DNA from: Prolixibacteraceae bacterium
Lineage (GTDB): Bacteria; Bacteroidota; Bacteroidia; Bacteroidales; Prolixibacteraceae
Assembly (NCBI GenBank): GCA_947475715.1
Contig: CANJNY010000030.1
Span: 1 to 43,903, forward strand
Direction of reading: 5' to 3'
DNA length: 43,903 bases
Below the pieces are notes generated by a model. That model did no database searches and was not told the DNA's origin. It saw only the letters and a program-made list of their open reading frames with translations. A program made the translations under genes and the position numbers. How positions within the stretch are numbered: position 1 is the stretch's first letter; each line of letters starts with the position of its first letter. This document shows, piece by piece, positions 4,834-37,980 of this stretch.

Positions 4834-6579
4834 TTACTTAAGTTTGAATTGTATCGGTATCGTATAAGCCACATCAACCGCCTTACCCTGTTGTTTGCCG
4901 GGCTGCCAATCGGGCATCAGTCCAACTACCCGAAGCGCCTCAGCATCCATATCCGCCTCAACCCCCTTGACAACTTTTGATTCCTCAACTTTTCCTGTAC
5001 TTTTGATGATAAAGCTAACAACCACGGTTCCCTGAACATTGGAAATTCTTGCCTGAGCGGGATACTTAATATTCTCGCCCAGAAATTTCATAAGAGCGTT
5101 AAACCCTCCAATGTATTGGGGCATTTCCTCAACCACAACAAAGGGCTCATTTGACTTTTTCAGATGATCTTCAACCTCCTTTTTCAAGGTTAGCTCTATT
5201 ACACCATATTTCCCTTTTTCTCCATATTTATCAATTGCGGTCTGATCCTTTAAAACATTAATCGACTCGATTGTTTCAGGATTTAACCTATCCATCTTCA
5301 CTTTGTCGATAATAACGCCATCAAGGACTATTAACGGAGGATACTTTGAATCAAAAGATTTATGATTTTCACTATTGGCTAACTGAGATGATGGTAAATT
5401 CTCAGAAGCTCCATTACCAACAACCATCACTTTTTCAATCCCTATTGATGCCCGCTCCAACTTAATCATCATGGGATTTTCTCTGTCAGCTTTGGAAAGA
5501 ACAGTTTCATATCCAATGTATGAAAAAACCAGTTCGCCGTTCTGAGGGACATCTGTTAATTTGAATTTTCCATTTTCGTCGGTAGTAGTTCCCATAGTCG
5601 AACCTCTCAAGATTACGGAGGTCCCTGCCAAAGGTTTTCCATCCGGATTGACAACGGTACCTGTAGCGGTAACTTTGCTTTCCTGACTATTATTCATCAG
5701 ATTCGTGAAATCAGATTTTGCGTCAGGCGCGGAGATGTATTCAGGTTTCGCAAAGGCATAGAATACCAATGCCATAAGTGGCACGATAAGCAGCAGCCGA
5801 AGTTTTCTTAATGGGGAATGTATGTGATTTTTCATCATCTTAAATCTTTTTTTATTCAGTGAATAATTAAATGAATTAGCCAGGCTGATAACCGGTGCCC
5901 CAAGAAGCTGGTTCAGCAGTGTCGCCCGGTAAATTGCCGGATCGGAAGTGTTTTGCAGCGCCTTCTCATCGGCCAGGTATTCATGGTTTTGCCTGATCAG
6001 GTGGGCGTATACCCACACGAAAGGATTAAACCACTGCACCATACAGAGGAGCTCCGCAAGTAATAAATCGAACCAGTGCCTTTGCCGGATATGTTCCAGC
6101 TCATGATTCACAATCTCCCTCGTTTCAACATCAGACGTTGAAGGATTGACAAAAACGTAGGAGAAAAATGAAAACGAGGCAGCATAAGCGGTCGTGCGAA
6201 CAAGTTTTACAGCACCGGTAACCTCATAACCGGCTTTTCGCAGTTTCAGGATAACTTTTAAATTTTGCCAAAAAAGCCTGAATGCCAGCCAGCCGATTCC
6301 AACAACGTATAACCAATAATAGATAGGAATTACCGGGGCCGGAGTTTCAATAACCTTTGCCGACAAACCCGAAATTGCAATGGTTCCGGTTGTTGAAGGA
6401 ATGATAACAGCATAATGCCAGGTAAACAATGGGAAAACAAGCGAGGCAACAATCCCCGAAAGAAGGTAAATCCGATTCAATTGAAAATACCGTTCATTAC
6501 GTAAAACAGCCAGAAAAACAAGGGTAAAACCTGTCAGCCAGACGGCCGATTTTAAAAGGTAGAAGCCAAAAGTTTCCAT
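4834..6579 (-). CDS. BlaR1-like M56 membrane metalloprotease with carboxypeptidase-regulatory, plug-like and TonB_C domains
   Basis: The 581-aa protein has hydrophobic segments near residues 5-25, 38-58 and 86-105 and another at 262-278. Between the third and fourth is the zinc-protease motif HELEH (159-163) with a downstream ADE motif near 203-205, both typical of M56 sensors. A CarboxypepD_reg-like domain follows (about 303-375), then a stretch like a TonB-receptor plug (PLIVLDGV to KYGVIEL, 415-463), then a TonB C-terminal domain (488-580). The partner blaI gene ends 1 bp before this start. In the family, the sensor detects an envelope signal and its protease triggers loss of the BlaI repressor. 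The signal here is unknown; no beta-lactamase gene is in the window. The extra domains are a Bacteroidota form of the family and suggest an added envelope role. Confidence 0.85.
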   Translation of the reverse strand: METFGFYLLKSAVWLTGFTLVFLAVLRNERYFQLNRIYLLSGIVASLVFPLFTWHYAVIIPSTTGTIAISGLSAKVIETPAPVIPIYYWLYVVGIGWLAFRLFWQNLKVILKLRKAGYEVTGAVKLVRTTAYAASFSFFSYVFVNPSTSDVETREIVNHELEHIRQRHWFDLLLAELLCMVQWFNPFVWVYAHLIRQNHEYLADEKALQNTSDPAIYRATLLNQLLGAPVISLANSFNYSLNKKRFKMMKNHIHSPLRKLRLLLIVPLMALVFYAFAKPEYISAPDAKSDFTNLMNNSQESKVTATGTVVNPDGKPLAGTSVILRGSTMGTTTDENGKFKLTDVPQNGELVFSYIGYETVLSKADRENPMMIKLERASIGIEKVMVVGNGASENLPSSQLANSENHKSFDSKYPPLIVLDGVIIDKVKMDRLNPETIESINVLKDQTAIDKYGEKGKYGVIELTLKKEVEDHLKKSNEPFVVVEEMPQYIGGFNALMKFLGENIKYPAQARISNVQGTVVVSFIIKSTGKVEESKVVKGVEADMDAEALRVVGLMPDWQPGKQQGKAVDVAYTIPIQFKLK

Positions 6580-18533: not shown

Positions 18534-19100
18534 ATGGCAGAAGACCTGACATTATGGAGAAAAATCCAAAATGGGGACACCGTTGCATTGAAGGAATTGC
18601 ACAACCGGTATTATTATCAAATGATAATTCAGGTTAGAAGGATGCACTTAAATCATATTGGTTCGGACGAAGTTGTATCTGATTGCTTCATTAAACTGTG
18701 GACCAAACGGAATGAAATTCTGATTGAGCGATCCGTAAGGTCTTATCTGTTTTTGATGCTGCGCAATACATTAATAGACCATTCGCGAAAGAAAAAACAA
18801 TTTATCCATGTTGATTCAGAATCGACTCCCGAGGCTTATGAAGAGATGGACACTGAGGAGCTGGATGATTACGCCAAACTGTATAATGCGCTGGAAAGGC
18901 TTCCTGATCAGCGACGCCGTATTCTGGAATTGGCAGTTTTTGATTCGTGCAGTTATGCACAAATAGCCGAAAAGCTTCAGATCTCAGTTAACACCGTTAA
19001 GACTCAGATGGGAAGAGCCTACCGCTTTCTCAAGGAGGAGCTTGATCCTAAAAGCATTAAGGTATTTTTCATGATCCACTCCAGAAGATTAATGAATTAG
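18534..19100 (+). CDS. FecI-type ECF sigma factor
   Basis: The 188-aa protein has the two ECF regions: region 2 (about 10-85, LKELHNRYYYQMIIQVRRMH, CFIKLWTKRNE, RSYLFLMLRNTLIDHSRKKK) and region 4 (about 125-178, LPDQRRRILELAVFD, SYAQIAEKLQISVNTVKTQM). These bind the -10 and -35 promoter parts. It is the standard length for Bacteroidota PUL sigma factors and has a FecR-type anti-sigma gene 174 bp downstream, then SusC/SusD. The STN domain on this SusC is what allows signalling through FecR to this sigma factor. Confidence 0.93.
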   Translation: MAEDLTLWRKIQNGDTVALKELHNRYYYQMIIQVRRMHLNHIGSDEVVSDCFIKLWTKRNEILIERSVRSYLFLMLRNTLIDHSRKKKQFIHVDSESTPEAYEEMDTEELDDYAKLYNALERLPDQRRRILELAVFDSCSYAQIAEKLQISVNTVKTQMGRAYRFLKEELDPKSIKVFFMIHSRRLMN

Positions 19101-19274: not shown

Positions 19275-20273
19275 ATGACCGAAGAACAAGATTTCCATTG
19301 GGAAGAAATAGCCGGCAAACTTCACCGGGAACTAAATATTGACGAAGAGGGAGAATTCATCCGGGAGATGGATGATCGCGCGCGTCAGGTGGAATTTGAA
19401 AAGGCACAGGTGATACACGACCAGCTTGCTGAAATTGGATTGATTACAGTTGAGGCAAGAGATCATTCATGGGAAAGAGTAGAAAACGGGATTAAACCAG
19501 ATCGGTTGAATTGGCTTAAGGTTTTCGTAAAATACGCGGCTATAATTATTGCAGCCTTTTTTTCAGGCAGCATGATTAAATCTTTTACCACGGCAGACAA
19601 AGAGGTCTTGTATTCGGAGATCAGAGCTCCCCACGGCCAGATGAGCAAGGTTGTCCTGCCTGATGGAACTAAAATATGGTTAAATTCCGGAACTACAATA
19701 AAATATCCTGACCGTTTTACAGAGGAGAAACGAGAAGTTACAATTAGTGGTGAAGCATACTTCGAAGTGGCCAAGATGGATCATAAACCATTTCTGGTAA
19801 CTACCAAAGATCTGGTGGTCGAAGTATTTGGAACCTCATTTAATGTCTCAGCCTATATTGATGATGACGCGACTTCTGTTACACTTGTCGAAGGGAAGGT
19901 TGAGATTATAGGCACTGATGGTAAAACCAGTGCCCGGCTTAATCCAGGACAATTGGCTGTAAAGAATAAAAAAGAGAGCACTATTTCAATCCATAATGTT
20001 GAAACCAGTTTTTATAAAGCATGGATTGAAGGGAGGATATATTTTGATGATCAACCTTTAAATCAGATTGCAATTAAATTGGAACGATGGTTTAATGTGA
20101 ATATCGAATTTGCAAATGACAATCTTAAATCCTATAAATTTACGGGAACTATCCTGAAGAATAAGCCTTTGGACCAAATCATGCAGGCGCTGGAGTTGCT
20201 GGCCCCCATAAGATTTAAACACCAGGTTAATACAACCGGGAAAGATAAAATAACAATCTACAAACGAACTTAA
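19275..20273 (+). CDS. FecR-type anti-sigma factor
   Basis: Residues 1-80 are the cytoplasmic part that holds the sigma factor. One transmembrane segment follows (about 84-102, VKYAAIIIAAFFSGSM). The periplasmic FecR domain (about 115-215) carries the signatures RAPHGQMSKVVLPDGTKIWL, ISGEAYFEVAKMDHKPF and VFGTSFNVSAY. The C-terminal DUF4974 domain (about 255-325, IYFDDQPLNQIAIKLERWFN, FTGTILKNKPLDQIMQAL) is an STN-like fold and probably meets the SusC N-terminal domain. Order sigma, anti-sigma, SusC, SusD is typical for glycan loci. Confidence 0.93.
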   Translation: MTEEQDFHWEEIAGKLHRELNIDEEGEFIREMDDRARQVEFEKAQVIHDQLAEIGLITVEARDHSWERVENGIKPDRLNWLKVFVKYAAIIIAAFFSGSMIKSFTTADKEVLYSEIRAPHGQMSKVVLPDGTKIWLNSGTTIKYPDRFTEEKREVTISGEAYFEVAKMDHKPFLVTTKDLVVEVFGTSFNVSAYIDDDATSVTLVEGKVEIIGTDGKTSARLNPGQLAVKNKKESTISIHNVETSFYKAWIEGRIYFDDQPLNQIAIKLERWFNVNIEFANDNLKSYKFTGTILKNKPLDQIMQALELLAPIRFKHQVNTTGKDKITIYKRT

Positions 20274-20301
20274 AGAAGAATGCCTATGAAGTATTGTAGT
20301 T

Positions 20302-20339
20302 AAAAAAAGCGGTGAAGATGTTCGTACCATCCTCACCGC
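20302..20339 (-). terminator. Minus-strand intrinsic terminator ahead of susC
   Basis: Read on the minus strand, GCGGTGAGGATG (20339-20328), a 7-nt loop and CATCTTCACCGC (20320-20309) form a 12-bp stem including one G-U pair, followed by seven U (20308-20302). In plus-strand RNA the same position is an A-C mismatch and no U tract follows, so the minus strand is the better functional reading. No minus-strand gene is present to be terminated. Confidence 0.7.
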
Positions 20340-20349
20340 ACCAATTGAT
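20302..20349 (-). ncRNA. Candidate short antisense-side RNA at the susC leader
   Basis: The promoter at 20355-20387 and terminator at 20302-20339 together predict an RNA of about 48 nt, opposite the leader of susC and 42 bp before its start codon. If transcription begins further inside susC, the RNA would overlap the start codon. Bacteroides loci with small RNAs opposite the susC 5' region are known (DonS-type); whether this is one of them is inferred from position only. Confidence 0.4.
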
Positions 20350-20354
20350 TCAAA

Positions 20355-20387
20355 CAAACCTATATTGTCAAATTTAAATCATCCAAA
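20355..20387 (-). promoter_or_regulatory. Minus-strand Bacteroidota promoter ahead of susC
   Basis: On the minus strand TTTG (20387-20384) and TAGGTTTG (20362-20355) are separated by 21 bp and match both consensus elements. Transcription would start near 20349, only about ten bases before the terminator stem. Confidence 0.5.
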
Positions 20388-20390
20388 TTT

Positions 20391-23300
20391 ATGAAAATGT
20401 ATCGACTTATCCATGGTGGCGAACGACCATGGACAAAACCTCTTCGCATTATGAAACTAACTGTTATTCTGATATTTGCGAGCATGGTTGCGATGAGCGC
20501 CTCCTCCTATTCCCAGAACACAAAACTCAATTTATCGGCAAAGAACACCTCTTTGATCGATATTTTCAGATTAATTGAAGATCAAAGTGAATTTTATTTT
20601 TACTTTAATAAAGAAGAAGTAAAAGCCAAGGAATCAGTTTCCGTTGATGCCAAGGATGCCATTGTTACCGAAATCCTGGATCAGGTATTATCAAAAACCG
20701 GATTGGAATACCGGGTAATCGACCGCTATATTGTGGTCAAGCAGAAAGGGAGTGCAGATCCGGAGCTGACCATGCAGCCCGAGCGCAAGGTCACCGGCCA
20801 GGTATCCGATCAAAGTGGCATTTCATTGCCCGGTGTATCTGTTTTCATCAGCGGGACAACAATGGGGACCATTACCGATAATGACGGAAAATTCCAGTTA
20901 AATATTCCTCCTGATGCAAAAACAATTGTTTTCTCATTCATAGGAATGGAGACTCAGGAAATTGCAATTGCAGGCAAAACAAATTTCGCGGTTGTACTTG
21001 CTCAGTCCAGTATCGCAATCTCCGATGTGGTGGTTACCGCGTTGGGGATTAAACGGGAGAAAAAGGCACTGGGATACTCTGTTGGAGAGGTGAAATCAGA
21101 TATGATGGAACGTGTACCTCAGAAAGACCTTCTAGGTGCATTGGCCGGAAAAATGTCAGGGGTAAAGATTACCAATACCTCGAATGATGTCAACGCAGAA
21201 ACCTATGTCAATATCCGTGGCATTACTTCCCTTGCAGGAAACAATGCCCCACTGGTCATTGTGGACGGAGTCCCTACCGGCGATCCAAAGGTGATGAAAG
21301 ACATTAATCCTGATGATATTGAAAGTGTTACTGTATTAAAGGGGCCAAGTGCTGCAGCTCTTTACGGATCCAGAGCCGGAAACGGTGTGATCCTTATTAA
21401 CAGCAAAACTGGCAAACAGGTTAAAAACGGGATCGGTGTCGATCTTAGTGTTGGAACAACCTACTCCGTTCCTTATAAATTCATCAAACTCCAAAACCGT
21501 TTCACCACAGGTATTAGCGGGGTTCTGAATGAAAACTCCTACCAGCAATGGAATGGTCCTGAGGAGGGTACTTCAGCCATTCAGTGGAATACCAAAGGGG
21601 AAGCCAAACCTCTTAAATTTTACAATAATGCCCTTAGGGATTACTTTCAAACCGGATTGGAAACGGTTTACGATGCAAGCGTTAATGGTTCATACGATCG
21701 CGGAAGTTACCGCCTGTCAGTTTCCCATTTAGGGGCAACAGGGGTTTATCCAGGGGTCGAATTGCAACGCAACGGAGTGAATATGTCGGTTACTTATGAC
21801 ATCACCAAGAAGGTGAAGCTCTCTACCAATATTGATATCTCAAACCCTTATTCGGACAACTATCCGGTAAAAAACGGAGGTGACACACAATATATGGCAG
21901 TCTATCAGACTCCTCCTCATGTTAACATCAATGATCTTAAAGATTATTGGACAACCCCTAACGTACTTCAAAAGGGGACCAATAAAGCGCACGATAATCC
22001 CTGGTTTGCGGCCTATGAACTGAAGGATGCCTTCTCCCGGGTCAGAGGTTACGGAAATATGAAACTTGATTACCAGATTCTTCCTGATTTAAAGTTGATG
22101 GGGCGCTATGCTTTAAACAGCAATAATGAAAAAAGGGTATACCGTCAGCCATGGTCTAGCTATGGTGGTGATGGAGGCGGAAACAATAAGCCTCAGGGAA
22201 CTTACAATCAGACTATCAATAATATGAGAGAGATGAATACCGATTTCCTGCTCTCATACAAGAAGAAAATTGGAAAATTTGAGATTGACCCTTCGGTAGG
22301 AGGTAACCTGATGACTCAACGCAGTTACAGCGCCTATGCCGGTGGAGATCCACTTGTACTGGCAGGTCTATACACCCTCTCCAATGTAAACAGGAATGGT
22401 CTGACTTATTATGATTATACCTACAAAAAGAACATTTATAGTGTATATGGTCTGGCGAATATAAGTTATAACAACATGATCTTTTTAGATGCAACCGCAA
22501 GAAACGACTGGTCAAGTACATTACCGGAAGCCAACAGGTCATATTTCTATCCATCCGCTTCATTAAGCGTGCTTATAAACGAGATGGTTACTCTTCCTTC
22601 ATGGGTCTCTTTACTGAAAGTTCGTTCAGGATTGTCTCAGGTAGGTAAGGATACGAATCCGTATGTAATTGCGACTGTTCTAAACCAGGGAACCTGGGGT
22701 GCGAATACCGCCTATTCAGTACCAGGAAGTTTACCGAATATCAATCTGAAGCCCGAGATTGCAAAATCATTTGAAATTGGTACAGATGTCTCCTTTTTCG
22801 GTAACAGACTAGGCTTTGACTTTACTTATTACAAAGTTCAGAATACAAACCAGATTCTGAATGCCGCCACCTCTTCCATGTCGGGATTTACCTCTGCAAC
22901 AATCAATGCAGGTAATGTTGAAAATAAGGGGATAGAAATTGGAATAAACGCTATTCCGATAAAAACAAGGGATCTTACCTGGGATTTAACGGCAAATTTC
23001 ACCCGTGAAAGAAGTCAGTTAAAAGAGCTTACACCAGGTATCAATCAGTTCCAGTTCTGGGAAAGCACCTCAGTGTATGCATGGACTCGCGTAGGTGACT
23101 ATGTGGGTGATATTTATGCCAGAGACATGGTCCGTGTAAAAGAAGGCCCTTATAAAGGCTGGGCATTGCTCGATGCAAATGGTAAAATGCAGACGAATAA
23201 TTCAGATGTTGTGAAAGTTGGCAACTATATGCACGACTTTATGGTGGGTATGCAAACGAGCTTATCTTATAAAATGTTCACTCTCTCTCTTAGTTTTGAT

Positions 23301-23960
23301 TGGAGACAAGGGGGCAAGTATTATGATCAGACAATGATGCGTTTGTCCAGAGCAGGAAAAGTGGAGAAATTCCATGACGATGCCAATTCCAGTACCTTTA
23401 CAGGTCTATTGAGCAACAATTCCTTTAATGGTGATGTAAATGCACTTGCCGGTGAGATCAAGGCTCATCCCGAGATTTACCAGAATGATACCTGGATCGG
23501 TGGACGGACACAGGACCTTGGTGGTTTCCTATACACAAACGGAGTCTACGAAGGGAGTTTCTTTCCGGGTGTGAGATCTGACGGAGCAGGCGGATATGTA
23601 GAGAATTTTGGTGCCGCAGGAACCAAACTTGTTAAGGCATACGATATCTTCCAGCCTTCTGGAGGTTATTGGAATACCGCTACCAGAAATAAATGGATCT
23701 ATGATGCTTCATTCATAAAGCTCAGAGAGATCGCTATTTCATATACACTTCCAAAATCAATTTCGGGAAAATTACATACTCAGAAAATCATCCTATCGGC
23801 TTTCATGAAGAATATCGTCCTTTGGGCAGCAAACAAGACCAATCAGGATCCTGAATCGATCTACAATCAAAATGGTGGCGATACACGTCAGGGATTGAGT
23901 CTTTGGAATGCTTCTCCGATTATTATGCCTACCGGTTTTAAACTCAATGTCACCTTCTAA
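20391..23960 (+). CDS. susC: SusC-family TonB-dependent outer-membrane transporter with STN domain
   Basis: The 1,189-aa protein has a long leader with the signal core near residues 20-42 (MKLTVILIFASMVAMSASSY). Next are an STN domain (about 46-117, LSAKNTSLIDIFRLIEDQSE), a CarboxypepD_reg-like domain (132-205, GTTMGTITDNDGKFQLN), the SusC-type VVVTALGIKREKKALGYS entry to the plug (to about 340, IVDGVPTG, NPDDIESVTVLKGPSAAALY, SRAGNGVILI) and a 22-strand barrel to the end. It imports glycan fragments across the outer membrane with TonB energy. The STN domain fits signalling to the adjacent FecR protein. The SusD gene starts 11 bp after the stop. N-terminal form starting at Met21 would also give a signal peptide. 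Confidence 0.95.
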   Translation: MKMYRLIHGGERPWTKPLRIMKLTVILIFASMVAMSASSYSQNTKLNLSAKNTSLIDIFRLIEDQSEFYFYFNKEEVKAKESVSVDAKDAIVTEILDQVLSKTGLEYRVIDRYIVVKQKGSADPELTMQPERKVTGQVSDQSGISLPGVSVFISGTTMGTITDNDGKFQLNIPPDAKTIVFSFIGMETQEIAIAGKTNFAVVLAQSSIAISDVVVTALGIKREKKALGYSVGEVKSDMMERVPQKDLLGALAGKMSGVKITNTSNDVNAETYVNIRGITSLAGNNAPLVIVDGVPTGDPKVMKDINPDDIESVTVLKGPSAAALYGSRAGNGVILINSKTGKQVKNGIGVDLSVGTTYSVPYKFIKLQNRFTTGISGVLNENSYQQWNGPEEGTSAIQWNTKGEAKPLKFYNNALRDYFQTGLETVYDASVNGSYDRGSYRLSVSHLGATGVYPGVELQRNGVNMSVTYDITKKVKLSTNIDISNPYSDNYPVKNGGDTQYMAVYQTPPHVNINDLKDYWTTPNVLQKGTNKAHDNPWFAAYELKDAFSRVRGYGNMKLDYQILPDLKLMGRYALNSNNEKRVYRQPWSSYGGDGGGNNKPQGTYNQTINNMREMNTDFLLSYKKKIGKFEIDPSVGGNLMTQRSYSAYAGGDPLVLAGLYTLSNVNRNGLTYYDYTYKKNIYSVYGLANISYNNMIFLDATARNDWSSTLPEANRSYFYPSASLSVLINEMVTLPSWVSLLKVRSGLSQVGKDTNPYVIATVLNQGTWGANTAYSVPGSLPNINLKPEIAKSFEIGTDVSFFGNRLGFDFTYYKVQNTNQILNAATSSMSGFTSATINAGNVENKGIEIGINAIPIKTRDLTWDLTANFTRERSQLKELTPGINQFQFWESTSVYAWTRVGDYVGDIYARDMVRVKEGPYKGWALLDANGKMQTNNSDVVKVGNYMHDFMVGMQTSLSYKMFTLSLSFDWRQGGKYYDQTMMRLSRAGKVEKFHDDANSSTFTGLLSNNSFNGDVNALAGEIKAHPEIYQNDTWIGGRTQDLGGFLYTNGVYEGSFFPGVRSDGAGGYVENFGAAGTKLVKAYDIFQPSGGYWNTATRNKWIYDASFIKLREIAISYTLPKSISGKLHTQKIILSAFMKNIVLWAANKTNQDPESIYNQNGGDTRQGLSLWNASPIIMPTGFKLNVTF

Positions 23961-23961
23961 A

Positions 23962-24016
23962 ATCGAAAGAGATGAAAAAAATTCAATTTATATCGAAAGA
24001 GATGAAAAAAATTCAA
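23962..24016 (+). repeat. 30-bp duplication of the susD start region
   Basis: ATCGAAAGAGATGAAAAAAA plus TTCAA occurs at 23962-23986 and again at 23992-24016, exactly 30 bp apart and in frame. Each copy holds an upstream purine stretch and an ATG, giving two start sites encoding MKKIQ. Confidence 0.9.
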
Positions 24017-25762
24017 ACTAAATCTTTCAGCATTATAACTGTTGTTATGTTGCTGCTGACAATATCATGTCAGGATCTAACAGAGATCAATAAGAGCCCT
24101 AATCAACTTAATGCCAGTGATATAAACGTTAAGTATGTATTAACATCTGTGCTTTCGTCTTCGTCATCCAACTATATTCGTGCACAGGTTTACGGAGGTG
24201 GAGTTGGTATTACTGAAGCTATGCAATACCTGCAGAGAGACTATATCGACTTTCAGGGTCCAAACACGATGCTATGGAGTCCAGCCCCTTTTTCGAGTTT
24301 CTACTCTTCGTTAAAGAACAGTCAGTATATTTATGAGAATGCTAAATTCGAGATACTGGAAGGGAACCAAAAGTTCTACCAAGGCGTTGGATTAATTATG
24401 CGTAGCTTCTGGTTCGGTTTCTTTACTTCAGCCTATGGCGATATTCCGTATTCTGAAGCGATGAAAGCACAGGAGGGGAACTTTACCCCGGTTTACGACA
24501 AGCAGAAAGATGTATTCGTTGGGATATTGAAAGATCTGAAAGATGCCAATGATATTTTAGCGACTGTAACTTCTGTAGATGGGGCTGCCACGGCAGACCT
24601 TATGTATCAGGGCGATGTCACAAAATGGAGAAAATTCGCCAACTCATTACGATTAAGGTACTTAATCAGACTTTCTGAAAAATTATCCGATATGACCGCT
24701 GCAGGTGTCGATGTTAAAGCAGAGGTAAATTCAATGGTGGGCAATTCCGCAACCTATCCGATCTTTACTTCAAGCAGCGACAATGCCTCAATTGCCTATC
24801 CCGGAACTGATGCCTCCAATGGATGGTATGGTGGACCGCTTGGCTGGACCAACAGATCAGAATTTTATCGCCGCAAACCTTGTGCAACGTTAGTCAATGA
24901 GTTAAGGGGCAATATGGATCCTCGCTTAACCGTTTTCATCCGCCCTGTCGATACCCAATTGCATGTAAACCCTAATGCCACCGGTTATGTTAAACTTTCG
25001 GATGGACAAATTATCCGCAATATCTCTCCGTCAACCTCCGGTGTTGCGACTCTTGATACCGCAAGATATGTGGGATTACCTCCGGCACTTGGAGATCCCA
25101 ACCTTTATAATCTTTATACAGGAACAGACTTTAATGCGATTAAGGCACTTAACCCCGGCATTTACACTGACCTGGCAGCCAATCCCAATGTCTCGTATCT
25201 TGCCGACAAGTATGCTCAGGACAAAAATGATGTGGTAAGAGCTGTTTATATGAGCTACGCCGAACTTAGTTTTACCCTGGCTGAAGCGCGTTTAAAAGGA
25301 TGGATTTCCAGTAGTACCGCAGCCGATTATTATCAGGCAGGTGTTACCGGCAGCTTAAGGCAATATAATGTCGCCAATGGTAGTATGACCGTTTACAATC
25401 CTCAAAATCATGCCTTGGTTCCCTTTTCTGAAAGTACATTTCTAAGTGACCTTACATCCAAATTTAACAATGCAGACAATGACGATGCTCGTCTAAATCT
25501 GCTGATGACCCAAAAATGGCTGGCAGATTTTATGACTCCGGAATTTTGGTTTGACTGGCGCAGGACAGGTTTGCCAAACTTTGGAGCAAAATTAGTTTCA
25601 GGAAGTAATGGGAAAAAAATCCCGGTAAGATATATTTACGGTGACGATGAAAAAATACTTAATAAACCAAATGTTACAGCAGCAATTGGAACATTATCGC
25701 CTGTTGAAGATACACAATGGAGTAAAATGTGGCTATTACAGGGATCAAGCAAACCATGGTAA
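23972..25762 (+). CDS. susD: SusD/RagB-like surface glycan-binding lipoprotein
   Basis: Lipoprotein signal with the Cys of LLTISCQD as anchor. The start is ambiguous: ATG 23972 gives a 33-residue signal; the duplicated ATG 24002 gives the more usual 23. The mature part follows the SusD-like type with EINKSPNQL, FWFGFFTSAYGDIPYSEAM (TPR helices), VTKWRKFANSLRLRYLIRLS, MSYAELSFTLAEARLKGW and the C-terminal FDWRRTGLP. SusD proteins form a lid on SusC and bind glycan at the cell surface. At 596 residues it fits the SusD-like_2 group. The gene follows susC by 11 bp and is ended by the terminator at 25853-25889. Confidence 0.92.
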   Translation: MKKIQFISKEMKKIQTKSFSIITVVMLLLTISCQDLTEINKSPNQLNASDINVKYVLTSVLSSSSSNYIRAQVYGGGVGITEAMQYLQRDYIDFQGPNTMLWSPAPFSSFYSSLKNSQYIYENAKFEILEGNQKFYQGVGLIMRSFWFGFFTSAYGDIPYSEAMKAQEGNFTPVYDKQKDVFVGILKDLKDANDILATVTSVDGAATADLMYQGDVTKWRKFANSLRLRYLIRLSEKLSDMTAAGVDVKAEVNSMVGNSATYPIFTSSSDNASIAYPGTDASNGWYGGPLGWTNRSEFYRRKPCATLVNELRGNMDPRLTVFIRPVDTQLHVNPNATGYVKLSDGQIIRNISPSTSGVATLDTARYVGLPPALGDPNLYNLYTGTDFNAIKALNPGIYTDLAANPNVSYLADKYAQDKNDVVRAVYMSYAELSFTLAEARLKGWISSSTAADYYQAGVTGSLRQYNVANGSMTVYNPQNHALVPFSESTFLSDLTSKFNNADNDDARLNLLMTQKWLADFMTPEFWFDWRRTGLPNFGAKLVSGSNGKKIPVRYIYGDDEKILNKPNVTAAIGTLSPVEDTQWSKMWLLQGSSKPW

Positions 25763-29707: not shown

Positions 29708-30778
29708 ATGATCCTATCCAATCCTCTCCTTGGAACCGGGCTTCATGCAATTGGCGGAGCATCTGCATCAAGCTGTTATTTACCAAATACCCAAACCCGC
29801 AATTGGTCGTGGGGAACATTCTGGTTGGTCCAATCACTCTTTGCCTGGATAATCATGCCTATATTGGTCGGTTGGCTTACTGTTCCCGATTTCTTTACGA
29901 TTCTTGCGGAAGCCCCATCCAAACCTTTCCGAATGGCATTCCTCCTTGGTTGTGCCTACGGTTTTGGAGGGATGTCGTTTGGGAAAGCGATTAAACATAT
30001 CGGATATTCCTTAACCTATACACTTGCCATTGGCATTTCAGCCGTATTAGGCACGATCTTTCCGCTGATCATCTTTGGTGGCTTAGGAAGTTTCTTTACC
30101 AAACCGGGTGGTGAAATTGTTTTATCAGGGATGATCCTCTCAGTCATAGGTGTACTATTTTGCGGTTGGGCCGGATTTAGAAAGGAGAAGGACCTGAATT
30201 CGCTTGACACAGGAAAACCGGGTTTTAATATGACTATCGGTTTATTTCTTACCATTGTTGCCGGAGTGCTATCCGGTGTATTCAATCTTTCGCTGGAATA
30301 CGGGCAGCCGATTGCAGATATTGCGGCGAAACATGGTGCAGGCAATTTCGAAGGAAATGCCAAAATGATTATCTCCACAGCCGGTTGTTTTTCCGTAAAT
30401 TTCATCTGGTTTATAGTCGCAGGAATCAGGCAGGGAACTCTTGGTGAGTTCTTGCCTGGCAATGGAATACCCGGTAAAATGATGGTCATGAATTGGATCT
30501 GGTCGGCCCTGGCAGGAACACTCTGGTGCTCCCAGTTTTTCTTTTACGGACTTGGGCATGTTCAGATGGGCAACTTCCAGTTTGCCAGTTGGGTACTTCA
30601 CATGTCAATGCTGATATTTTTCAGCTTTATCATTGGCGTATTGATGAAAGAGTGGAAGGTGGTTAAACCTAAAACCTATCTGGTACTGCTAATTGGATTG
30701 CTGACGCTGGTAACCTCCTTTTGCATTACCAGTTATGGAAGCTATATCGGGGAGCAGATTATAAATAACAAGCATTAA
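29708..30778 (+). CDS. rhaT: L-rhamnose/H+ symporter-like protein (RhaT family)
   Basis: The 356-aa membrane protein has about ten helices of the drug/metabolite transporter fold. RhaT signatures are GTGLHAIGGASASSCYLP, WSWGTFWLVQSLFAWII, FLLGCAYGFGGMSFGKAIKH and SLTYTLAIGISAVLGTIFP. RhaT brings L-rhamnose or similar 6-deoxyhexoses into the cytoplasm with a proton. Its presence says that the operon releases a deoxysugar in the periplasm, which fits a fucosidase-like GH95 enzyme downstream. No rhamnose or fucose isomerase/kinase genes are in this window, so the catabolic steps must be elsewhere. The next gene starts 27 bp after the stop. Confidence 0.85.
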   Translation: MILSNPLLGTGLHAIGGASASSCYLPNTQTRNWSWGTFWLVQSLFAWIIMPILVGWLTVPDFFTILAEAPSKPFRMAFLLGCAYGFGGMSFGKAIKHIGYSLTYTLAIGISAVLGTIFPLIIFGGLGSFFTKPGGEIVLSGMILSVIGVLFCGWAGFRKEKDLNSLDTGKPGFNMTIGLFLTIVAGVLSGVFNLSLEYGQPIADIAAKHGAGNFEGNAKMIISTAGCFSVNFIWFIVAGIRQGTLGEFLPGNGIPGKMMVMNWIWSALAGTLWCSQFFFYGLGHVQMGNFQFASWVLHMSMLIFFSFIIGVLMKEWKVVKPKTYLVLLIGLLTLVTSFCITSYGSYIGEQIINNKH

Positions 30779-30805
30779 TAATTAATAGAGCTTACTTCTT
30801 GAATA

Positions 30806-32287
30806 ATGAAAATACGTTTAATCGTAATCGTAGCTTTTATAATATTTCCTAACCTTAATTTATGGTCCGAAGAAAAAATTAATTTTCCGGTTGAAAATTC
30901 AGATACCACGAAAATCGATCAAAAGCTCCCTATCGAATTTAAGATTCCCCAAAAACACCAATACCATCAAACCCTCACGATGAAACTGTTCCTGTCGCAG
31001 GCGCTGTTTGACGGGAAACATAAACGCAGGGACAACGGGAAATCCGAAGTTTTCCTCAACTATGAGCAGGCGCTAGAGGTGATTCGAAAGATTGACAATC
31101 TCACCTTAGGTATTCCAAAAATCATCTACCTGGTTGGTTGGCAATACAATGGTCACGATTCAAAATACCCCGCCTGGTTTGAGGGGAATGAGCGGTTAAA
31201 ACGCTCGGGAGATAAAAACTCCTTTGAAAGTTTGAAATGGCTGATGACGGAGGCCGAAAAGTATCACACCACGGTAAGCCTTCATATCAATATGTTGGAT
31301 GCATACGAAGATAGCCCGCTTTGGGAAGAGTATCTGAAAAATGAGATCATAGCAAAAAACAGTGATGGATCGCTTAGAGCCTGTGAGTGGGGTCATCCCA
31401 TCAGTTACGCTCAGGAGTGGAAGAGCGGATATGCTCAAAAACGTATTGACCGGATTTGTGAATTGTTGCCACTTGCCAAAGCCGGAACCATTCATATTGA
31501 TGCCTTTCACTCCTGGCCTCCGGTACCGGTTGTCGATAAAAATGGCACTGATCGTATCGATTTCACAAAGGGTCCAATTAGCCCATATCTGAAATTCACA
31601 GTTCAGGATGAAACCGATGCCCAACGAAAGATTTTCAGTTACTGGGCCTCCAAGGGGATTGATGTTACATCTGAGAGTGTCGATTTTTTGCGCGAATCGG
31701 CTTTTGAGGGTTACCAGCCTATGGCATGGCATTTCGGAGGTCTTGAAAATTATATCAAATGGCCTGCATCCTATTATTGTGGTGGCAAGGATGACGGTGA
31801 ATGGGGGAAATTATTCGGCTCCAGTATGCACGGTGAAGATATAATCAAAAATGATTCCCGGACTTTAGCAGGTTTTAAAGAACAATTCTGTCTTAAAACA
31901 GTGGTCTGGTATTACCTGAACAGGTTAAATCGCTTGTATCTGGTGAATAGCAACGAAAATAAAAGGGTGAAATTCTCCGGTCAGGTCTCCACAATTCTTT
32001 CAAATAAGAATTATTACGTCATGAAAGAGAAAAACATAATAGTCGAAAACGATAACCTGCTTATTCCTGCGTTATGGATAGGCGACCATGTTATGATTGC
32101 CTATAGTAAGAAAGGATATAAAAACAGATTGTGGGAACTTCCCCTGAGTTGGGAAGGGTCAGGCAAATTAAGAATCAGTCGCATTACCACTGAAGGAAAG
32201 ACATTTCTGGAATTCTCCAAATTAGACCAGTTAAAATTATCATTATCCTTAGCAGAAGATGAGATGGTACTGATTGAAAAGCTTTAA
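30806..32287 (+). CDS. GH101/GH129-like exported glycoside hydrolase
   Basis: A signal peptide (MKIRLIVIVAFIIFPNLNLW) precedes a TIM-barrel. Strand motifs are IPKIIYLVGWQYNGHDSKYP, VSLHINMLDAYEDSP, AGTIHIDAFHSWPPVP (Asp232, likely nucleophile) and GIDVTSESVDFLRE (Glu290, likely acid). This arrangement recalls endo-alpha-N-acetylgalactosaminidases (GH101) and GH129. The 493-aa protein is much shorter than GH101 proteins and has only a small beta domain after the barrel (residues about 390-490). It is probably a family member of unclear substrate, such as an exo-acting alpha-hexosaminidase or alpha-galactosidase. The family call is from pattern memory and only fairly sure. Confidence 0.65.
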   Translation: MKIRLIVIVAFIIFPNLNLWSEEKINFPVENSDTTKIDQKLPIEFKIPQKHQYHQTLTMKLFLSQALFDGKHKRRDNGKSEVFLNYEQALEVIRKIDNLTLGIPKIIYLVGWQYNGHDSKYPAWFEGNERLKRSGDKNSFESLKWLMTEAEKYHTTVSLHINMLDAYEDSPLWEEYLKNEIIAKNSDGSLRACEWGHPISYAQEWKSGYAQKRIDRICELLPLAKAGTIHIDAFHSWPPVPVVDKNGTDRIDFTKGPISPYLKFTVQDETDAQRKIFSYWASKGIDVTSESVDFLRESAFEGYQPMAWHFGGLENYIKWPASYYCGGKDDGEWGKLFGSSMHGEDIIKNDSRTLAGFKEQFCLKTVVWYYLNRLNRLYLVNSNENKRVKFSGQVSTILSNKNYYVMKEKNIIVENDNLLIPALWIGDHVMIAYSKKGYKNRLWELPLSWEGSGKLRISRITTEGKTFLEFSKLDQLKLSLSLAEDEMVLIEKL

Positions 32288-32366
32288 GTATAGTTTGAAA
32301 TTCATATTAATAATTCCGATCAACTAAAAACACACGATAAGAATAATATGATGATTATTTTAATCT

Positions 32367-32404
32367 TTTGGTAAACCAATGAAAGGTTGAATATCGTATC
32401 TTCG
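32367..32404 (+). promoter_or_regulatory. Possible internal promoter before the DUF5107 gene
   Basis: TATCTTCG (32397-32404) is one base from the TAnnTTTG box. The nearest TTTG (32367-32370) is 26 bp away, longer than usual. The gap to the previous gene (144 bp) is the largest in this run, so an internal start is plausible but weakly supported. Confidence 0.3.
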
Positions 32405-32431
32405 TGAAAAATCAAAGTAAACTAAAGCCCA

Positions 32432-35400
32432 ATGAAAAAACTAATCTCATGGCTGACTGCCATTTTCTTTGTACTGAATTTGAATTCATCATTCGGTCAA
32501 AAGGCTCAAATCTCTGAAAAACAGGTTCCCCTTGTGACCTACCCGTATTCAGATCCTGATCCGATTCCAAACTTAAGCAAATTCTATCCGTACTCCCGTT
32601 TTGAGGGATACTCAGATAAAGGGTCGGAGCAGAAATGGAAAATGGTAGAGCTTGAAAATGACTATATCAAACTCTGGATTACCCCCGAAATTGGCGGAAA
32701 GATCTGGGGCGCGGTTGAGAAAGCCACTGGAAAAGAGTTTATTTATTACAACCATACCGTTAAATTCCGCGATGTGGCGATGCGTGGCCCCTGGACTTCA
32801 GGGGGAATCGAACATAACTTCGGGGTAATTGGACATGCACCAACAACTTCATCACCCATTGACTACCTGGTTCGCGAAAACGAAGACGGCAGCGTGAGTT
32901 GCTTCGTTGGAGCAATCGATCTCCCTTCACGTACAAGATGGAGTGTGGAAATTAATCTTCAAAAAGACAAGGCATACTTTACTACCCGCTCGGTATGGGA
33001 CAATCCCACCAAAGTTGAACAGTCGTATTATAATTGGATGAATCTCGGAATTAAGACTGCCGGCAATCTTGAATATTCATTTCCCGGAAATTACTTCCTC
33101 GGACATGATGGGAAACCTTCACCATGGCCAAACGATAAGACCGGCAGAAAGCTTAATTTTTACGAGAATAATAATTTTGGGGAATATAAATCTTATCATG
33201 TTTTTGGAGAAGCCACCGGCTTTTACGGTGCTTACTGGCATGACGACGATTTTGGATTTGTCCATTATGCAGACTACGATGACAAACCAGGAAAAAAAGT
33301 TTGGATCTGGGGATTGGCTGACCAGGGAATGATCTGGGAAAAATTGCTGACTGACAAGGACGGACAATACACTGAAATACAGTCAGGACGACTTTTTAAC
33401 CAGGCGGCAGGAGAGAGTAGTAAAACCCCTTTCAAAAACAGAGGATTTGCTCCCGGATCGACAGACGAATGGACTGAATACTGGTTTCCTGTTAAGGGAA
33501 CGAAAGGGCTGCAATATGCCGAGCCTTCAGGATCTGTGAATCTTAAGCAAGAGGGGAATTCGGTTACATTAGGCTTTTGTCCAAATGAGAAAACGGATGG
33601 AATACTGGAAGTACGCAATGGAAGTGCAATTGTTTTCACAAAGGAAATTCATGCTAATCCATTACAAGTGACCAATGAAATAATTAAATACAATGGAGAT
33701 TATAAAACGCTAAGTGTTTGGTTGGGAAATAAACTTCTTTTTGAGACTAACCGCGATAAATATTTAGTCAAACGTCCTGTGCTTTCGCCAACGGCATTCA
33801 ATTGGGAAACAGCATACGGTTATTATATCAAGGGAAAAGAGCTCGAACGGCAACGTGAATACAAACTTGCAGCAGATGAATACAAGAAATCAATGGAGGT
33901 CGAACCATTCTATGTTCCGACCCTTATCGGGATGGCAAATCTCGCCTATCGCAAGACAGATTACAAGGCTTCAATCGATTATGCGTTAAAAGCCCTTTCA
34001 GTGGATACTTACGATCCGGAAGCTAATATGGCATATGCACTTGCAGGTTTGGCTTTGGGAGATACGACCTCTGCAATTGACGGCTTTTCGATGGCATCGG
34101 CAAGTGTTTCACAACGAAGCGCGGCTTTTAGTGGTCTGGGATCAATTGCAATGCAACAAGGTAATTATAGCAAGGCACTGGCTTACGCACACAAAAGTCT
34201 TCAATCAAACCAGATGAGTTCAGACAATAGCCAACTCAAAATTCTGGCACTTCGGAAGCTTGGGAACAAGGAGCAATCCATTCAGGAACTTTTACAACTC
34301 GAAAAGAAAGATCCGTTGAACCACTTTATCCGTTTTGAAAAATATCTTACTGATCCCTCAACAGAAAACAAAGCAAAGGTTCAGAGTCATATCACCGGTG
34401 AGATGCCTCACGAAACCTACCTGGAATATGCCTTATGGTACCTGCGCAATGGACAAATGGCAGATGTTTTAAAGGTTCTTGATCTGGCACCGCAGGATCA
34501 TCCGATTGTTTTGCTTTGGGAGGGATTTCTGAATCACCAAACCGGCAAAGAACAAGAAGCAATGGCATTGGTTGCAAAAGCGCTTGAATTCAGTCCGAAA
34601 TTCATTTTTCCCTCGCGTGAAGAAACACTTAACCCACTGGAATGGGCCAGGTCTAAAACTGACAACTGGAAAATTAAATATTATACCGGCCTGGTTTATC
34701 TCAATGCCGGAGCAGTAGACAAGGCGAAAGGATTATGGAACAGTTGTGCTGAGACACCCGATTTCTACCCATTCTATATTGGACGTTCACGGCTTTCGGA
34801 ACCGGGCAGTGATCAGGCACAGGCGGATATTGAAAAAGCACTATCCCTTGCAGGAGATGACTGGCGGGCAGGGATGATTGCCTCTAAATTCTATATGGAA
34901 AAAGGAGATAATCTAAAGGCAGAGGAACTGGCTAAAACTTTCTATACAAAAAATCCGAAAAGCTATTACCTGGGTCTCCAATATGCCAAAATGCTGGAGT
35001 TAAATAAAAAGTATCAGGCTTGCATCAACCTGCTGCAAAAGTTACAGGTGCTGCCCAATGAGGGGGCGACAGATGGCCGAATAGTTTGGAAAAATGCAAA
35101 CATTGGAAATGCCCTCGACCTGATAAAAACGAAAAATTATAACAAAGCACTGGAAAGTATTACCCGCTCAAAACAATGGCTGCCAAATCTTGGTGTTGGA
35201 AAACCTTATGATGTAGATGAACGGATGGAAGATTTCATCGCGATGCAATGTTATCAAAAACTAAAAGACAAAAAAATGGCTGATCAAACCAGAGAAAAAA
35301 TCTCAGGAAAAAAAGCGCTTCAAAACTTATCATCCGGAGCAAACGATTTTCTTACAGCATGGCTATTGAAAGATGCCGGAGATAAAACAGAGGGGGATCG

Positions 35401-35593
35401 GATTATGAAAGAATTATCTGACAAAAATCCGGATGCAAAAAATATTCAGTGGAGCGTAGCCGTATATACCAGCAGCCTCGAACGGGCTAAAACCCTGTCA
35501 AAAGAGCTTGGAAAAAAAGATGAGCAGACACTCTTAATGGAACGGGTTATAGATGAGTTGCTCCAGCTGGGATCGTATTGTTGCCAACCATAA
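32432..35593 (+). CDS. DUF5107-TPR exported protein
   Basis: A signal peptide ends near residue 22 (LNLNSSFGQ). Residues about 40-330 match DUF5107, a beta-sandwich like aldose-epimerase or GH-associated folds: LENDYIKLWITPEIGGKIWG, MRGPWTSGGIEHNFGVIGHAP, and ARDTRW-like segments replaced here by PSRTRWSVEINL. From about 465 to 1,040 is an array of TPR-like helix pairs (AADEYKKSMEVEPFYVPTLI, KASIDYALKALSVDTYDPEA). At 1,053 residues it is normal for the family. In Bacteroidota it is regularly found in glycan loci; the His/Glu-rich beta domain may act on or bind sugar, while the TPR part would hold partners. Reaction unknown. Confidence 0.8.
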   Translation: MKKLISWLTAIFFVLNLNSSFGQKAQISEKQVPLVTYPYSDPDPIPNLSKFYPYSRFEGYSDKGSEQKWKMVELENDYIKLWITPEIGGKIWGAVEKATGKEFIYYNHTVKFRDVAMRGPWTSGGIEHNFGVIGHAPTTSSPIDYLVRENEDGSVSCFVGAIDLPSRTRWSVEINLQKDKAYFTTRSVWDNPTKVEQSYYNWMNLGIKTAGNLEYSFPGNYFLGHDGKPSPWPNDKTGRKLNFYENNNFGEYKSYHVFGEATGFYGAYWHDDDFGFVHYADYDDKPGKKVWIWGLADQGMIWEKLLTDKDGQYTEIQSGRLFNQAAGESSKTPFKNRGFAPGSTDEWTEYWFPVKGTKGLQYAEPSGSVNLKQEGNSVTLGFCPNEKTDGILEVRNGSAIVFTKEIHANPLQVTNEIIKYNGDYKTLSVWLGNKLLFETNRDKYLVKRPVLSPTAFNWETAYGYYIKGKELERQREYKLAADEYKKSMEVEPFYVPTLIGMANLAYRKTDYKASIDYALKALSVDTYDPEANMAYALAGLALGDTTSAIDGFSMASASVSQRSAAFSGLGSIAMQQGNYSKALAYAHKSLQSNQMSSDNSQLKILALRKLGNKEQSIQELLQLEKKDPLNHFIRFEKYLTDPSTENKAKVQSHITGEMPHETYLEYALWYLRNGQMADVLKVLDLAPQDHPIVLLWEGFLNHQTGKEQEAMALVAKALEFSPKFIFPSREETLNPLEWARSKTDNWKIKYYTGLVYLNAGAVDKAKGLWNSCAETPDFYPFYIGRSRLSEPGSDQAQADIEKALSLAGDDWRAGMIASKFYMEKGDNLKAEELAKTFYTKNPKSYYLGLQYAKMLELNKKYQACINLLQKLQVLPNEGATDGRIVWKNANIGNALDLIKTKNYNKALESITRSKQWLPNLGVGKPYDVDERMEDFIAMQCYQKLKDKKMADQTREKISGKKALQNLSSGANDFLTAWLLKDAGDKTEGDRIMKELSDKNPDAKNIQWSVAVYTSSLERAKTLSKELGKKDEQTLLMERVIDELLQLGSYCCQP

Positions 35594-35682
35594 TTAAATT
35601 TTAAAAACCTGTTGTTTCGCTATTCAGAACCGGTGTTTACTAAAGTATACAAATGCTTACATCTATGATACAATAAATTAGA

Positions 35683-37980
35683 ATGAGAAATATTCATCTG
35701 GTATTTTTGACAATCCTACTGATTGGAAACTCTTTTCAGGTTCAATCAGCAACCAAAACACCAAAATACAACCTTGAATTTCCCACCCTTGCCACCACCT
35801 GGGACGAAGGGATCCCATTGGGAAACGGAATGCTTGGTGCGCTTATCTGGCAAAAGGAGGATCATTTACGCTTCTCACTTGATCGCGCAGATTTATGGGA
35901 TTTACGGCCGATGGAGAATCTTTCGAAACCTGAATTCAATTTCAAATGGGTTCAGCAGCAAGTTAGAGATAGCAACTATAAGGTGGTTCAGAATATGTTT
36001 GACGTCCCTTATGACGCACTCCCGGCCCCTTCTAAAATCCCGGGTGCAGCCCTGGAGTTTGACACCAAAAGTCTGGGAGAGGTTAGTCAGGTTAAACTGA
36101 CCACCGAAAATGGAGTTTGTGAAACCAATTGGAAAAACGGGGCCCGACTTCGAACATTTGTTCAGGCAGACAAACCTTTTGGGTGGTTCCGATTCGAAAA
36201 TGTGTCAAAAGATTTTTGCCCGATACTGGTTCCTCCACAATACCGAAAAGCGGGCACAAGCAATGCTGACGATCCCGTGTCCGGTCAGGATTTACAGCGA
36301 CTGGGATATGAGCAAGGCAGTGTGGTCGGGAATCACAACAAACTTGTCTATAAACAAAAAGGGTGGAATGGATTTGAATACGAAGTAGCTGTTGCCTGGC
36401 ATACTTCCGGAAAGATCCTCACCGGAACCTGGACGATCACCTCTGATCCGACAGGAAAAAGCGGAGGACAAACTGCAGGAAATCTTGTATCGGCAAAACT
36501 TACCAACCTGAATTTTAAGCGGGCGCTAAAATCTCAGTCCCAATGGTGGAAAAATTTCTGGAGCAAGTCAGCTATCAATCTACCTGACACCATACTTCAA
36601 AAACAATGGATTCTTGAACAGTATAAGTTTGGATCTGCGGCCCGGGCCGATGCACCACCCATTTCACTTCAGGCAGTGTGGACAGCCGATAACGGAAAAT
36701 TACCACCGTGGAAAGGTGATCTCCACCATGACCTTAACACCCAGTTAAGTTACTGGCCCGCCTATTCTGCCAATCACCTTGATCTGGAGGAGGGGTATCT
36801 GAACTGGTTGTGGAAATATCGGGAGTCCTTTAAGCGCTATACTAAAACCTACTTTGGAACTTCAGGGATGAATGTCCCCGGAGTAACCACGCTAAATGGT
36901 GAACCAATGGGTGGCTGGATTCAGTATTCGTTTGGCCCTACTGTGGGATGCTGGCTTTCGCAACATTTCTACCTCCACTGGATCTATTCGAAAGACGAAA
37001 ATTTCCTGCGTGAAAAAGCTTATCCGTGGATTAGTGATGTTGCCACATACCTGGATGAAATTTCGGTTAAGGATGAAAAGGGGTTACGAAAGCTTCCGAT
37101 CAGTGCAAGTCCTGAAATTCATGACAACTCGTTAAAAGCCTGGTTTACTCAAACCACGAACTATGATCTGGGTTTTATACGCTGGACCTTTGAGAAAGCG
37201 GAAGAGCTCTCCAGAGAGTTAGGCAAAAAGGAGGAAGCCGACAAATGGCAACGGATTTTAAATGAGTGGCCAACATTTGCACTTGATGATCAGGGAGGAA
37301 TGGCCTTTGCTCCGGGCCATCCGTATGTAGAATCACACCGCCATTTTTCACATCTTGTTGCCTGGCATCCGCTGGGTGTTATCGACTGGTCGAACGGAGA
37401 GAAGGAGCAGGCTATCATCAAATCGACGCTTGAAAATCTTGAAAAGAGAGGTCCGGACTGGTGGTGTGGATACTCCTGGAGCTGGCTTGGGAACCTGTAT
37501 GCCCGCGCATTCATGGGAGATAAAGCCGCTGAAGCTTTGCGGATTTTCTCTGAAAACTTCTGTCTTACCAATAGTTTTCATGCCAATGGAGAACAGCATG
37601 ACAAAGGATATTCAAAGATGAAATACCGTCCATTCACGCTTGAGGGGAACTTTGCATTTGCGGCGGGAGTTCAGGAGATGCTGATCCAAAGTCATACCGG
37701 AATAATACATATTTTTCCGGCAATCCCTTCAAAATGGAAGGATGTGTCATTTTCGACACTGCGAACATCAGGCGCCTTTCTGGTATCGGCTGAGCAAAAA
37801 GAGGGAATGGTAGAAAAGGTGGAAATAACTTCAGAACAAGGGGGCGTGTGTAAATTAAAGAATCCATTCCAGACCGCTTCATGTCAAATAAAATACAGTT
37901 GGAAGGGGAGCCAAAAAACAGATAATGAAATTATAACGATTGATTTCCCGAAAGATGGACGGGTTATTTTAACGAATTAG
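35683..37980 (+). CDS. Divergent GH95-like exported glycoside hydrolase
   Basis: A signal peptide is followed by the GH95-like order: an N-terminal beta domain (GIPLGNGMLGALIWQKEDHL), a linker and an (alpha/alpha)6 barrel (about 290-690), then a small C-terminal beta domain. Barrel landmarks are LQAVWTADNGKLPPWKGDLH, HHDLNTQLSYWPA (348-360), ISASPEIHDN (Glu478, position of the usual acid) and LEGNFAFAAGVQEMLIQSH (Glu654). In characterised GH95 alpha-L-fucosidases the water-holding pair is N-x-N and the base is the Asp of DGNFG; here these read D350-x-N352 and Glu654. It may thus act on a different linkage or sugar (alpha-L-galactose has been reported in GH95). Last gene of the run, 89 bp after the DUF5107 gene. 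Confidence 0.75.
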   Translation: MRNIHLVFLTILLIGNSFQVQSATKTPKYNLEFPTLATTWDEGIPLGNGMLGALIWQKEDHLRFSLDRADLWDLRPMENLSKPEFNFKWVQQQVRDSNYKVVQNMFDVPYDALPAPSKIPGAALEFDTKSLGEVSQVKLTTENGVCETNWKNGARLRTFVQADKPFGWFRFENVSKDFCPILVPPQYRKAGTSNADDPVSGQDLQRLGYEQGSVVGNHNKLVYKQKGWNGFEYEVAVAWHTSGKILTGTWTITSDPTGKSGGQTAGNLVSAKLTNLNFKRALKSQSQWWKNFWSKSAINLPDTILQKQWILEQYKFGSAARADAPPISLQAVWTADNGKLPPWKGDLHHDLNTQLSYWPAYSANHLDLEEGYLNWLWKYRESFKRYTKTYFGTSGMNVPGVTTLNGEPMGGWIQYSFGPTVGCWLSQHFYLHWIYSKDENFLREKAYPWISDVATYLDEISVKDEKGLRKLPISASPEIHDNSLKAWFTQTTNYDLGFIRWTFEKAEELSRELGKKEEADKWQRILNEWPTFALDDQGGMAFAPGHPYVESHRHFSHLVAWHPLGVIDWSNGEKEQAIIKSTLENLEKRGPDWWCGYSWSWLGNLYARAFMGDKAAEALRIFSENFCLTNSFHANGEQHDKGYSKMKYRPFTLEGNFAFAAGVQEMLIQSHTGIIHIFPAIPSKWKDVSFSTLRTSGAFLVSAEQKEGMVEKVEITSEQGGVCKLKNPFQTASCQIKYSWKGSQKTDNEIITIDFPKDGRVILTN

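Follow-up and report, generated by a model that had tools for sequence, protein, structure and literature searches.

The stretch of DNA analysed here (43,903 nucleotides, hereafter the window) belongs to a Bacteroidales genome of 315 contigs, in which 25 FecR_C matches were found; the named genomes closest to it are MAGs of unclassified Bacteroidia, with names that suggest lakes. In the window, an ECF sigma factor gene, a fecR anti-sigma gene, a susC homologue and a susD follow each other in this order (Table 1), and a gap of 117 bp separates the fecR stop, which ends at 20273, from the susC ATG at 20391. This gap, opposite the 5' region of the susC homologue of a PUL, appears to hold an antisense unit, composed of a promoter box and an intrinsic terminator that are both predicted on the minus strand.

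Table 1. Annotated genes and predicted elements around the fecR-susC gap
Feature	Position	Strand	Remarks
ECF sigma factor gene	18534..19100	+	Pfam
fecR anti-sigma gene, FecR and FecR_C domains	19275..20273	+	Pfam; stop ends at 20273
GCCTATG element, candidate -10 region of the susC (ECF-sigma) promoter	20282..20288	+	48/143 contexts; 8/8 rows at the locus
U tract of the terminator (U7)	20302..20308	-	
Antisense intrinsic terminator hairpin	20309..20339	-	12 bp, 7-nt loop GTACGAA
Predicted antisense RNA, about 78 nt, putative ends	20302..20379	-	box to U tract
-7 box TAGGTTTG of the preliminary description, possible secondary start (~49-nt RNA)	20355..20362	-	exact in the window and L032
Predicted antisense -7 box TAAATTTG (TAnnTTTG)	20384..20391	-	overlaps the first base of the susC start codon
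susC with STN domain (TonB-dependent), presumed target	20391..23960	+	Pfam; TIGR04056 above cut-off
susD	23972-25762		directly after susC in gene order

The surroundings of the gap deserve a few words of their own. SusC opens with about 20 residues (20391-20453) before a further in-frame Met (e.g., IMKLT), and many fecR-linked SusC relatives share this front part; the true start may lie elsewhere, or the signal peptide may have an unusually long front part. Genes for a RhaT-like symporter, a GH101-like protein, a GH95 catalytic domain and a DUF5107/TPR protein adjoin the locus (29708-37980) and hint at a deoxysugar- or mucin-like substrate. On the minus strand, at 4834-6579, a 581-aa protein combines a BlaR1-type M56 peptidase with a carboxypeptidase-regulatory-like domain and a TonB C-terminal domain. 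The ORF at 32432-35593, considered as a SusC, is not one.

A preliminary description of the gap had placed on the minus strand a promoter (TTTG at 20387-20384, 21 bp, then TAGGTTTG at 20362-20355) facing a terminator (hairpin at 20339-20309, U7 at 20308-20302), and these letters and coordinates are correct. As minus-strand RNA, the hairpin folds with an energy of -21.8 kcal/mol (z -5.4, with none of 200 shuffles as good); the plus-strand fold of the same site reaches -16.7 kcal/mol, has one A.C mismatch and lacks a U tract. The earlier statements that the stem pairs fully only as minus-strand RNA, and that only this strand carries the U tract, thus agree with the sequence. The GC-rich stem, with the U tract immediately after it, is what is expected of a rho-independent terminator, and the element would act as minus- rather than plus-strand RNA.

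Does one such hairpin mean much? Not in terms of local numbers: a scan of 4 kb returned five terminator-like sites for 3.5 expected (sd 2.2), which is not above chance, and the window hairpin is the sole one of 12 pairs, the other four having 5-7. The terminator is considered more than a chance occurrence because it recurs in paralogues and relatives. With a threshold of -7 kcal/mol or better, 73 of 86 fecR-susC gaps have a terminator on the minus strand and nine on the plus strand; these gaps come from the window's own genome (20), from its orthologues (7) and from relatives (59), leaving out L018, which has no gap, and one of 60 relative regions (L089), which was dropped at a contig end. Dinucleotide-shuffled versions of the gaps gave 212/860 on the minus and 16/860 on the plus strand, so that a T-rich minus strand alone explains about a quarter. 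When the tail is not required and the best hairpin is taken from either strand, a hairpin occurs in 78 of 83 gaps, and it is more stable as minus RNA in 73 and as plus RNA in four, with one tie; a U tract accompanies these 78 on the minus side in 65 cases and on the plus side in 14. A second set of named loci, partly from the same species as the first, gave 67 to 5 with one tie (76 of 80 loci usable, 73 with a hairpin), and it includes Pedobacter, Mucilaginibacter, Sphingobacterium, Dyadobacter and many Bacteroidales. Many of these gaps are related by descent, and the counts are not independent events.

Within the window's own genome, comparable hairpins with a minus-side T tract were recognized by eye in 17 of 21 gaps between fecR and the next gene, once second matches at loci already counted (L021, L022, L024 and L025) had been dropped. 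A comparison of 17 hairpins of this genome gave 17 different loop-plus-neck sequences.

The locus itself is kept in seven same-genus orthologues (L027-L033), which together with the window form eight rows. The preliminary description had looked to close relatives for a possible loss of the stem and U tract: six of the seven keep the stem and a U-rich tract, and L033 is the exception, with neither the start-codon box nor most of the stem. The entire antisense unit may have been lost there by natural change. L033 keeps the core of the loop, without the lower stem and the box, and a T-rich stretch remains. Over the eight rows, and counting on ungapped hairpins and on orthologues rather than with a covariance model, the stem cells comprise 77 Watson-Crick, 15 G.U and 4 unpaired as minus RNA, and 77 Watson-Crick, 0 G.U and 19 unpaired as plus RNA; the 15 G.U cells of the minus strand are A.C mismatches on the plus strand, which repeats among the orthologues what was seen in the window. 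Mean pairwise identity is 0.89 in the loop, 0.82-0.83 in the stem arms, 0.74 in the spacer and 0.49 upstream of the A run. Two labels of this comparison need care: the identity block called GCCTATGA covers 20281-20288, and the one named after the earlier -7 box covers 20354-20361 instead of 20355-20362; the value of the latter was not used.

Another question is where an RNA ending at this terminator would begin. The TTTG that had been read as a -33 element is the last four letters, i.e., the 3' half, of another box, TAAATTTG (CAAANNTA on the plus strand), which fits TAnnTTTG, the -7 consensus of the primary sigma factor in Bacteroidota (PMC7366714, PMC9723704; the literature is cited here from excerpts of the papers). 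With the transcription start placed so that the box spans -12 to -5 (PMC9723704), the predicted RNA is 78 nt long at this locus; from TAGGTTTG it would be 49 nt. One reading, quite unlikely in our judgement, keeps the latter start: the RNA would begin at TTTG-21-TAGGTTTG, be about 49 nt long and consist almost entirely of terminator, and the start-codon box would be inactive or serve as its -33. This promoter does match the B. fragilis consensus perfectly, 10/10 with its -33, at a frequency of 0.6 expected by chance and three found in 143 regions, and the start-codon boxes have no enriched -33 of their own. However, it is exact in two of the eight rows (the window and L032), as against seven of eight, window included, for the start-codon box, which also recurs in paralogues (14 of 20 contexts of the same genome). 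The promoter proposed earlier is present to the letter and is a rare match, but it is probably not the main one, and as the main start it was rejected for its lack of conservation in orthologues. Likewise, the unusual shortness suggested for the RNA (45-60 nt) is probably wrong, given the length of about 78 nt predicted from the start-codon box. Across 97 contexts with both box and terminator, the predicted lengths have a median of 88 (range 57-145), which fits the 78-128 nt of the DonS RNAs discussed below; the 78 nt predicted for the window locus are at the bottom of that range.

The start-codon box was followed through a collection of 162 gaps, of which 149 are distinct (identical ones and those of <40 or >500 nt were dropped) and 143 have a minus-strand hairpin of -9 kcal/mol or better; gaps of at least 45 nt make up a set of 148 contexts. 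Once these are aligned on the susC start codon, CAAANNT stands immediately before the ATG in 103 of the 148, and when read on the minus strand it becomes TAnnTTTG, with the two free positions correctly placed. Twelve more contexts have the octamer shifted by 4 nt in the 3' direction, so that it encloses the ATG; 11 of these are from Pedobacter, Mucilaginibacter, Sphingobacterium or another Sphingobacteriaceae, and one is from Flavobacteriaceae. The two registers together give a start-codon box in 115 of 148 fecR-linked contexts (own genome 14/20, orthologues 6/7, relatives 45/54, named loci 50/67). Box and terminator tend to occur together: 88 contexts have both, 29 the terminator only, 15 the box only and 16 neither (Fisher p 0.007). 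Labilibaculum manganireducens, a culturable relative, carries the box as well as the hairpin.

The box is almost confined to this class of genes. In the named loci it was found at one of 218 other ORFs, these controls being mechanical ORFs of at least 150 aa and not checked genes; only two fecR-linked susC genes were complete in that scan, neither with the box. Among the 20 ORFs of at least 240 aa in the window, only this susC has it. In the window's genome, 13 of 15 fecR-linked SusC genes have the box versus 0 of 13 other SusC genes, and a minus-strand terminator lies upstream of 11/15 and 3/13, respectively; 28 of 30 genes could be scored, two having open starts, with linkage judged by contig and the window's susC lying outside the 30. 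No enrichment of a -33 TTTG at 19-21 nt from the start-codon box was seen in the 115 contexts, so that a -33 element for this box was rejected; in F. johnsoniae, according to an excerpt, no -33 motif was identified (PMC7366714). AGGAGG, the second enriched word upstream of the hairpins, was dropped, as 22 of its 24 occurrences are inside the end of fecR.

A motif placed at a start codon can also be read on the coding strand. CAAANNTATG might be a plus-strand signal special to fecR-linked susC genes, related to translation, to a trans-acting sRNA or to a protein, with the hairpin as a structure of the leader; its location at the start codon suits this idea, as does the pairing of B. thetaiotaomicron FopS sRNAs near a susC start codon (PMC11697453). 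Still, the free positions of CAAANNTATG match TAnnTTTG exactly, the 4-nt shift relative to the ATG in 12 contexts makes a translation signal unlikely, and in most cases the minus-strand RNA forms the better hairpin and carries the U tract; we regard a plus-strand signal as distinctly improbable. Taken as a whole, the sequence comparison supports the terminator, its strand, the predicted antisense box and the near-restriction of this box to fecR-linked susC genes.

On the sense strand, upstream of the hairpin by 11-54 nt, GCCTATG occurs in 48 of 143 fecR-susC contexts against 0.3 expected, and at the window locus it is present in all eight rows. From this we infer that it is part of the ECF-dependent promoter of susC. 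As an observation in its own right, GCCTATG is a candidate ECF-sigma promoter element for susC genes in this phylum.

How far does the antisense unit extend? A later sample from the whole order Bacteroidales gave the box in 20/25, the terminator in 19/25 and both in 17/25, with the hairpin more stable as minus RNA by 20 to 4; 25 of its 30 loci were usable, three being from genomes already used and two having short gaps, and it includes G018, G034 and G199, from the window's family or previously searched. In a phylum-wide sample (25 of 29 usable, four short gaps dropped), the exact box is present in 5/25, the terminator in 12/25 and both in 3/25, and hairpin stability is 14 for minus to 9 for plus; the exact boxes are 5/15 inside the class and 0/10 outside it. 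Universality over the phylum, which was tested on this sample, is not supported (box 5/25). A third sample comes from the family that bears FopS (f60, perhaps Bacteroidaceae, after an excerpt of PMC11697453): from 30 loci, L314 and L318 were left out as matches inside SusC and 11 of the remaining 28 were excluded, giving 17 usable, one of which (L312) is the same locus as L237 of the order-wide sample. Here the box is found in 3/17, the terminator in 13/17 and both in 3/17, with 10 to 6 in favour of the minus strand; nearly matching boxes and displaced ones are also seen around the start codon. The predicted terminator is widespread. The box is strong among those Bacteroidales to which the window belongs and, in its shifted form, in the sampled Sphingobacteriaceae, and it is weaker elsewhere.

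The FopS-bearing family, where terminators are kept and the exact box is mostly absent, lends something to a simpler proposal, i.e., that the terminator is an insulator only, which shields fecR and the susC promoter from stray antisense transcripts coming out of susC, and that the short RNA has no regulatory role. We think this unlikely: a promoter box nearly restricted to fecR-linked susC genes is hard to explain under it, and antisense RNAs located in the same position in B. fragilis are reported to repress their target (PMC7366714, PMC11697453). The RNA opposite the susC leader that the preliminary description had proposed is well supported by the comparison, and the decoy it offered as the other choice is unneeded.

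DonS and the cis-antisense RNAs that accompany Bacteroides PULs are reportedly the subject of work by Cao et al. in 2016. The small RNAs opposite susC 5' regions that the preliminary description had named as known in Bacteroides indeed exist: the RNAs of the DonS family are 78-128 nt long and have a negative effect on susC homologues (PMC7366714); an excerpt of PMC11697453 calls the mechanism of DonS unknown. More generally, PUL antisense RNAs have been described from B. fragilis and B. thetaiotaomicron (PMC7366714, PMC10994844, PMC11697453, PMC9723704, as excerpted). The predicted RNA resembles the DonS kind in position, opposite a susC 5' region, and in the length of about 78 nt that the start-codon box would give it, and may be a variant of it; it differs in that the DonS RNAs belong to Bacteroides, whereas the window's bacterium is of another family and its RNA is a prediction from sequence. 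FopS and GibS are also short RNAs with a 3' terminator, and FopS act at the susC start region; however, FopS share a 5' seed and act in trans (PMC11697453), while the predicted RNA is encoded in cis. The 27-nt core of the FopS R1' seed has no match with up to one mismatch in the window's genome (G000), and FopS was rejected as the identity of this RNA; exact seed cores do occur in genomes of the FopS-bearing family and in some other families. The start-codon-embedded box, common in the window's relatives, is mostly inexact in that family (3/17). At the gathering cut-off, no Rfam family was found in the window or in 20 of the 80 named loci. The Bacteroides sRNA BTnc201 (RF04177) scored 17.9 bits against a gathering value of 105, with E 0.5 in 171 bases, and is not a match; its weak full-length alignment (20394-20300, minus) may reflect a shared terminator shape only. 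ColE1 RNAI and CopA, two cis-antisense RNAs, make contact with their targets by way of hairpin loops. As in these systems, both strands of the window locus can form a hairpin, with loops that differ among paralogues and are mostly kept in orthologues; loop-loop pairing at this locus is a guess.

In our preferred reading, which we consider probable, the locus carries the gene of a DonS-like cis-antisense RNA, about 78 nt long, that restrains susC. RNA polymerase with the primary sigma factor would start on the minus strand at the TAnnTTTG box lying across the susC start codon, copy the susC leader backwards and stop at the hairpin and U7. This stop point would fall shortly downstream of the presumed 5' end of the susC message, and the antisense RNA would then be complementary to nearly the entire untranslated leader, from the susC start site to the start codon. 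Pairing along this stretch would hold susC down, either by blocking the entry of the ribosome or by marking the message for decay; transcriptional interference could be an alternative or an addition to this pairing. The brake would last until sense transcription, driven by the ECF sigma factor, is strong enough, and the terminator would keep the antisense polymerase from running into fecR and the susC promoter. What we infer here is the transcript with its two ends, the role of GCCTATG as promoter of susC, and the repression of susC. A point that counts against repression comes from B. thetaiotaomicron, where PUL antisense RNAs and their susC are positively correlated in some pairs and anti-correlated in others (PMC10994844). 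The recurrence of the stop and start signals at many related genes of Bacteroidota suggests a widespread brake on these genes.

In the literature surveyed, mostly without subscription papers and represented by excerpts (including PMC7366714, PMC11697453, PMC10994844, PMC9723704, PMC5635687 and PMC5723603), we found no description of an antisense box embedded in a start codon, nor of a conservation of PUL antisense RNAs beyond Bacteroides and its near kin. A broader proposal, which in our opinion could go either way, is that the module of ECF sigma factor, anti-sigma factor and SusC includes a fourth component that annotations miss, namely a gene for an antisense RNA. Its -7 box would interlock with the start codon of susC and its terminator would lie just inside the presumed sense start, the sense and antisense RNAs overlapping in the leader alone. 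Such a gene would be present in many Bacteroidales and Sphingobacteriales and in some other Bacteroidia.

If this is true, loops that differ among paralogues and are mostly kept in orthologues would allow a dozen or more brakes to work in one cell without cross-talk. Finally, the signature of start-codon box and terminator would make PUL antisense RNAs predictable from genomes, and it would extend them to Bacteroidota living outside the gut, as far as habitats can be judged from the names of the organisms.
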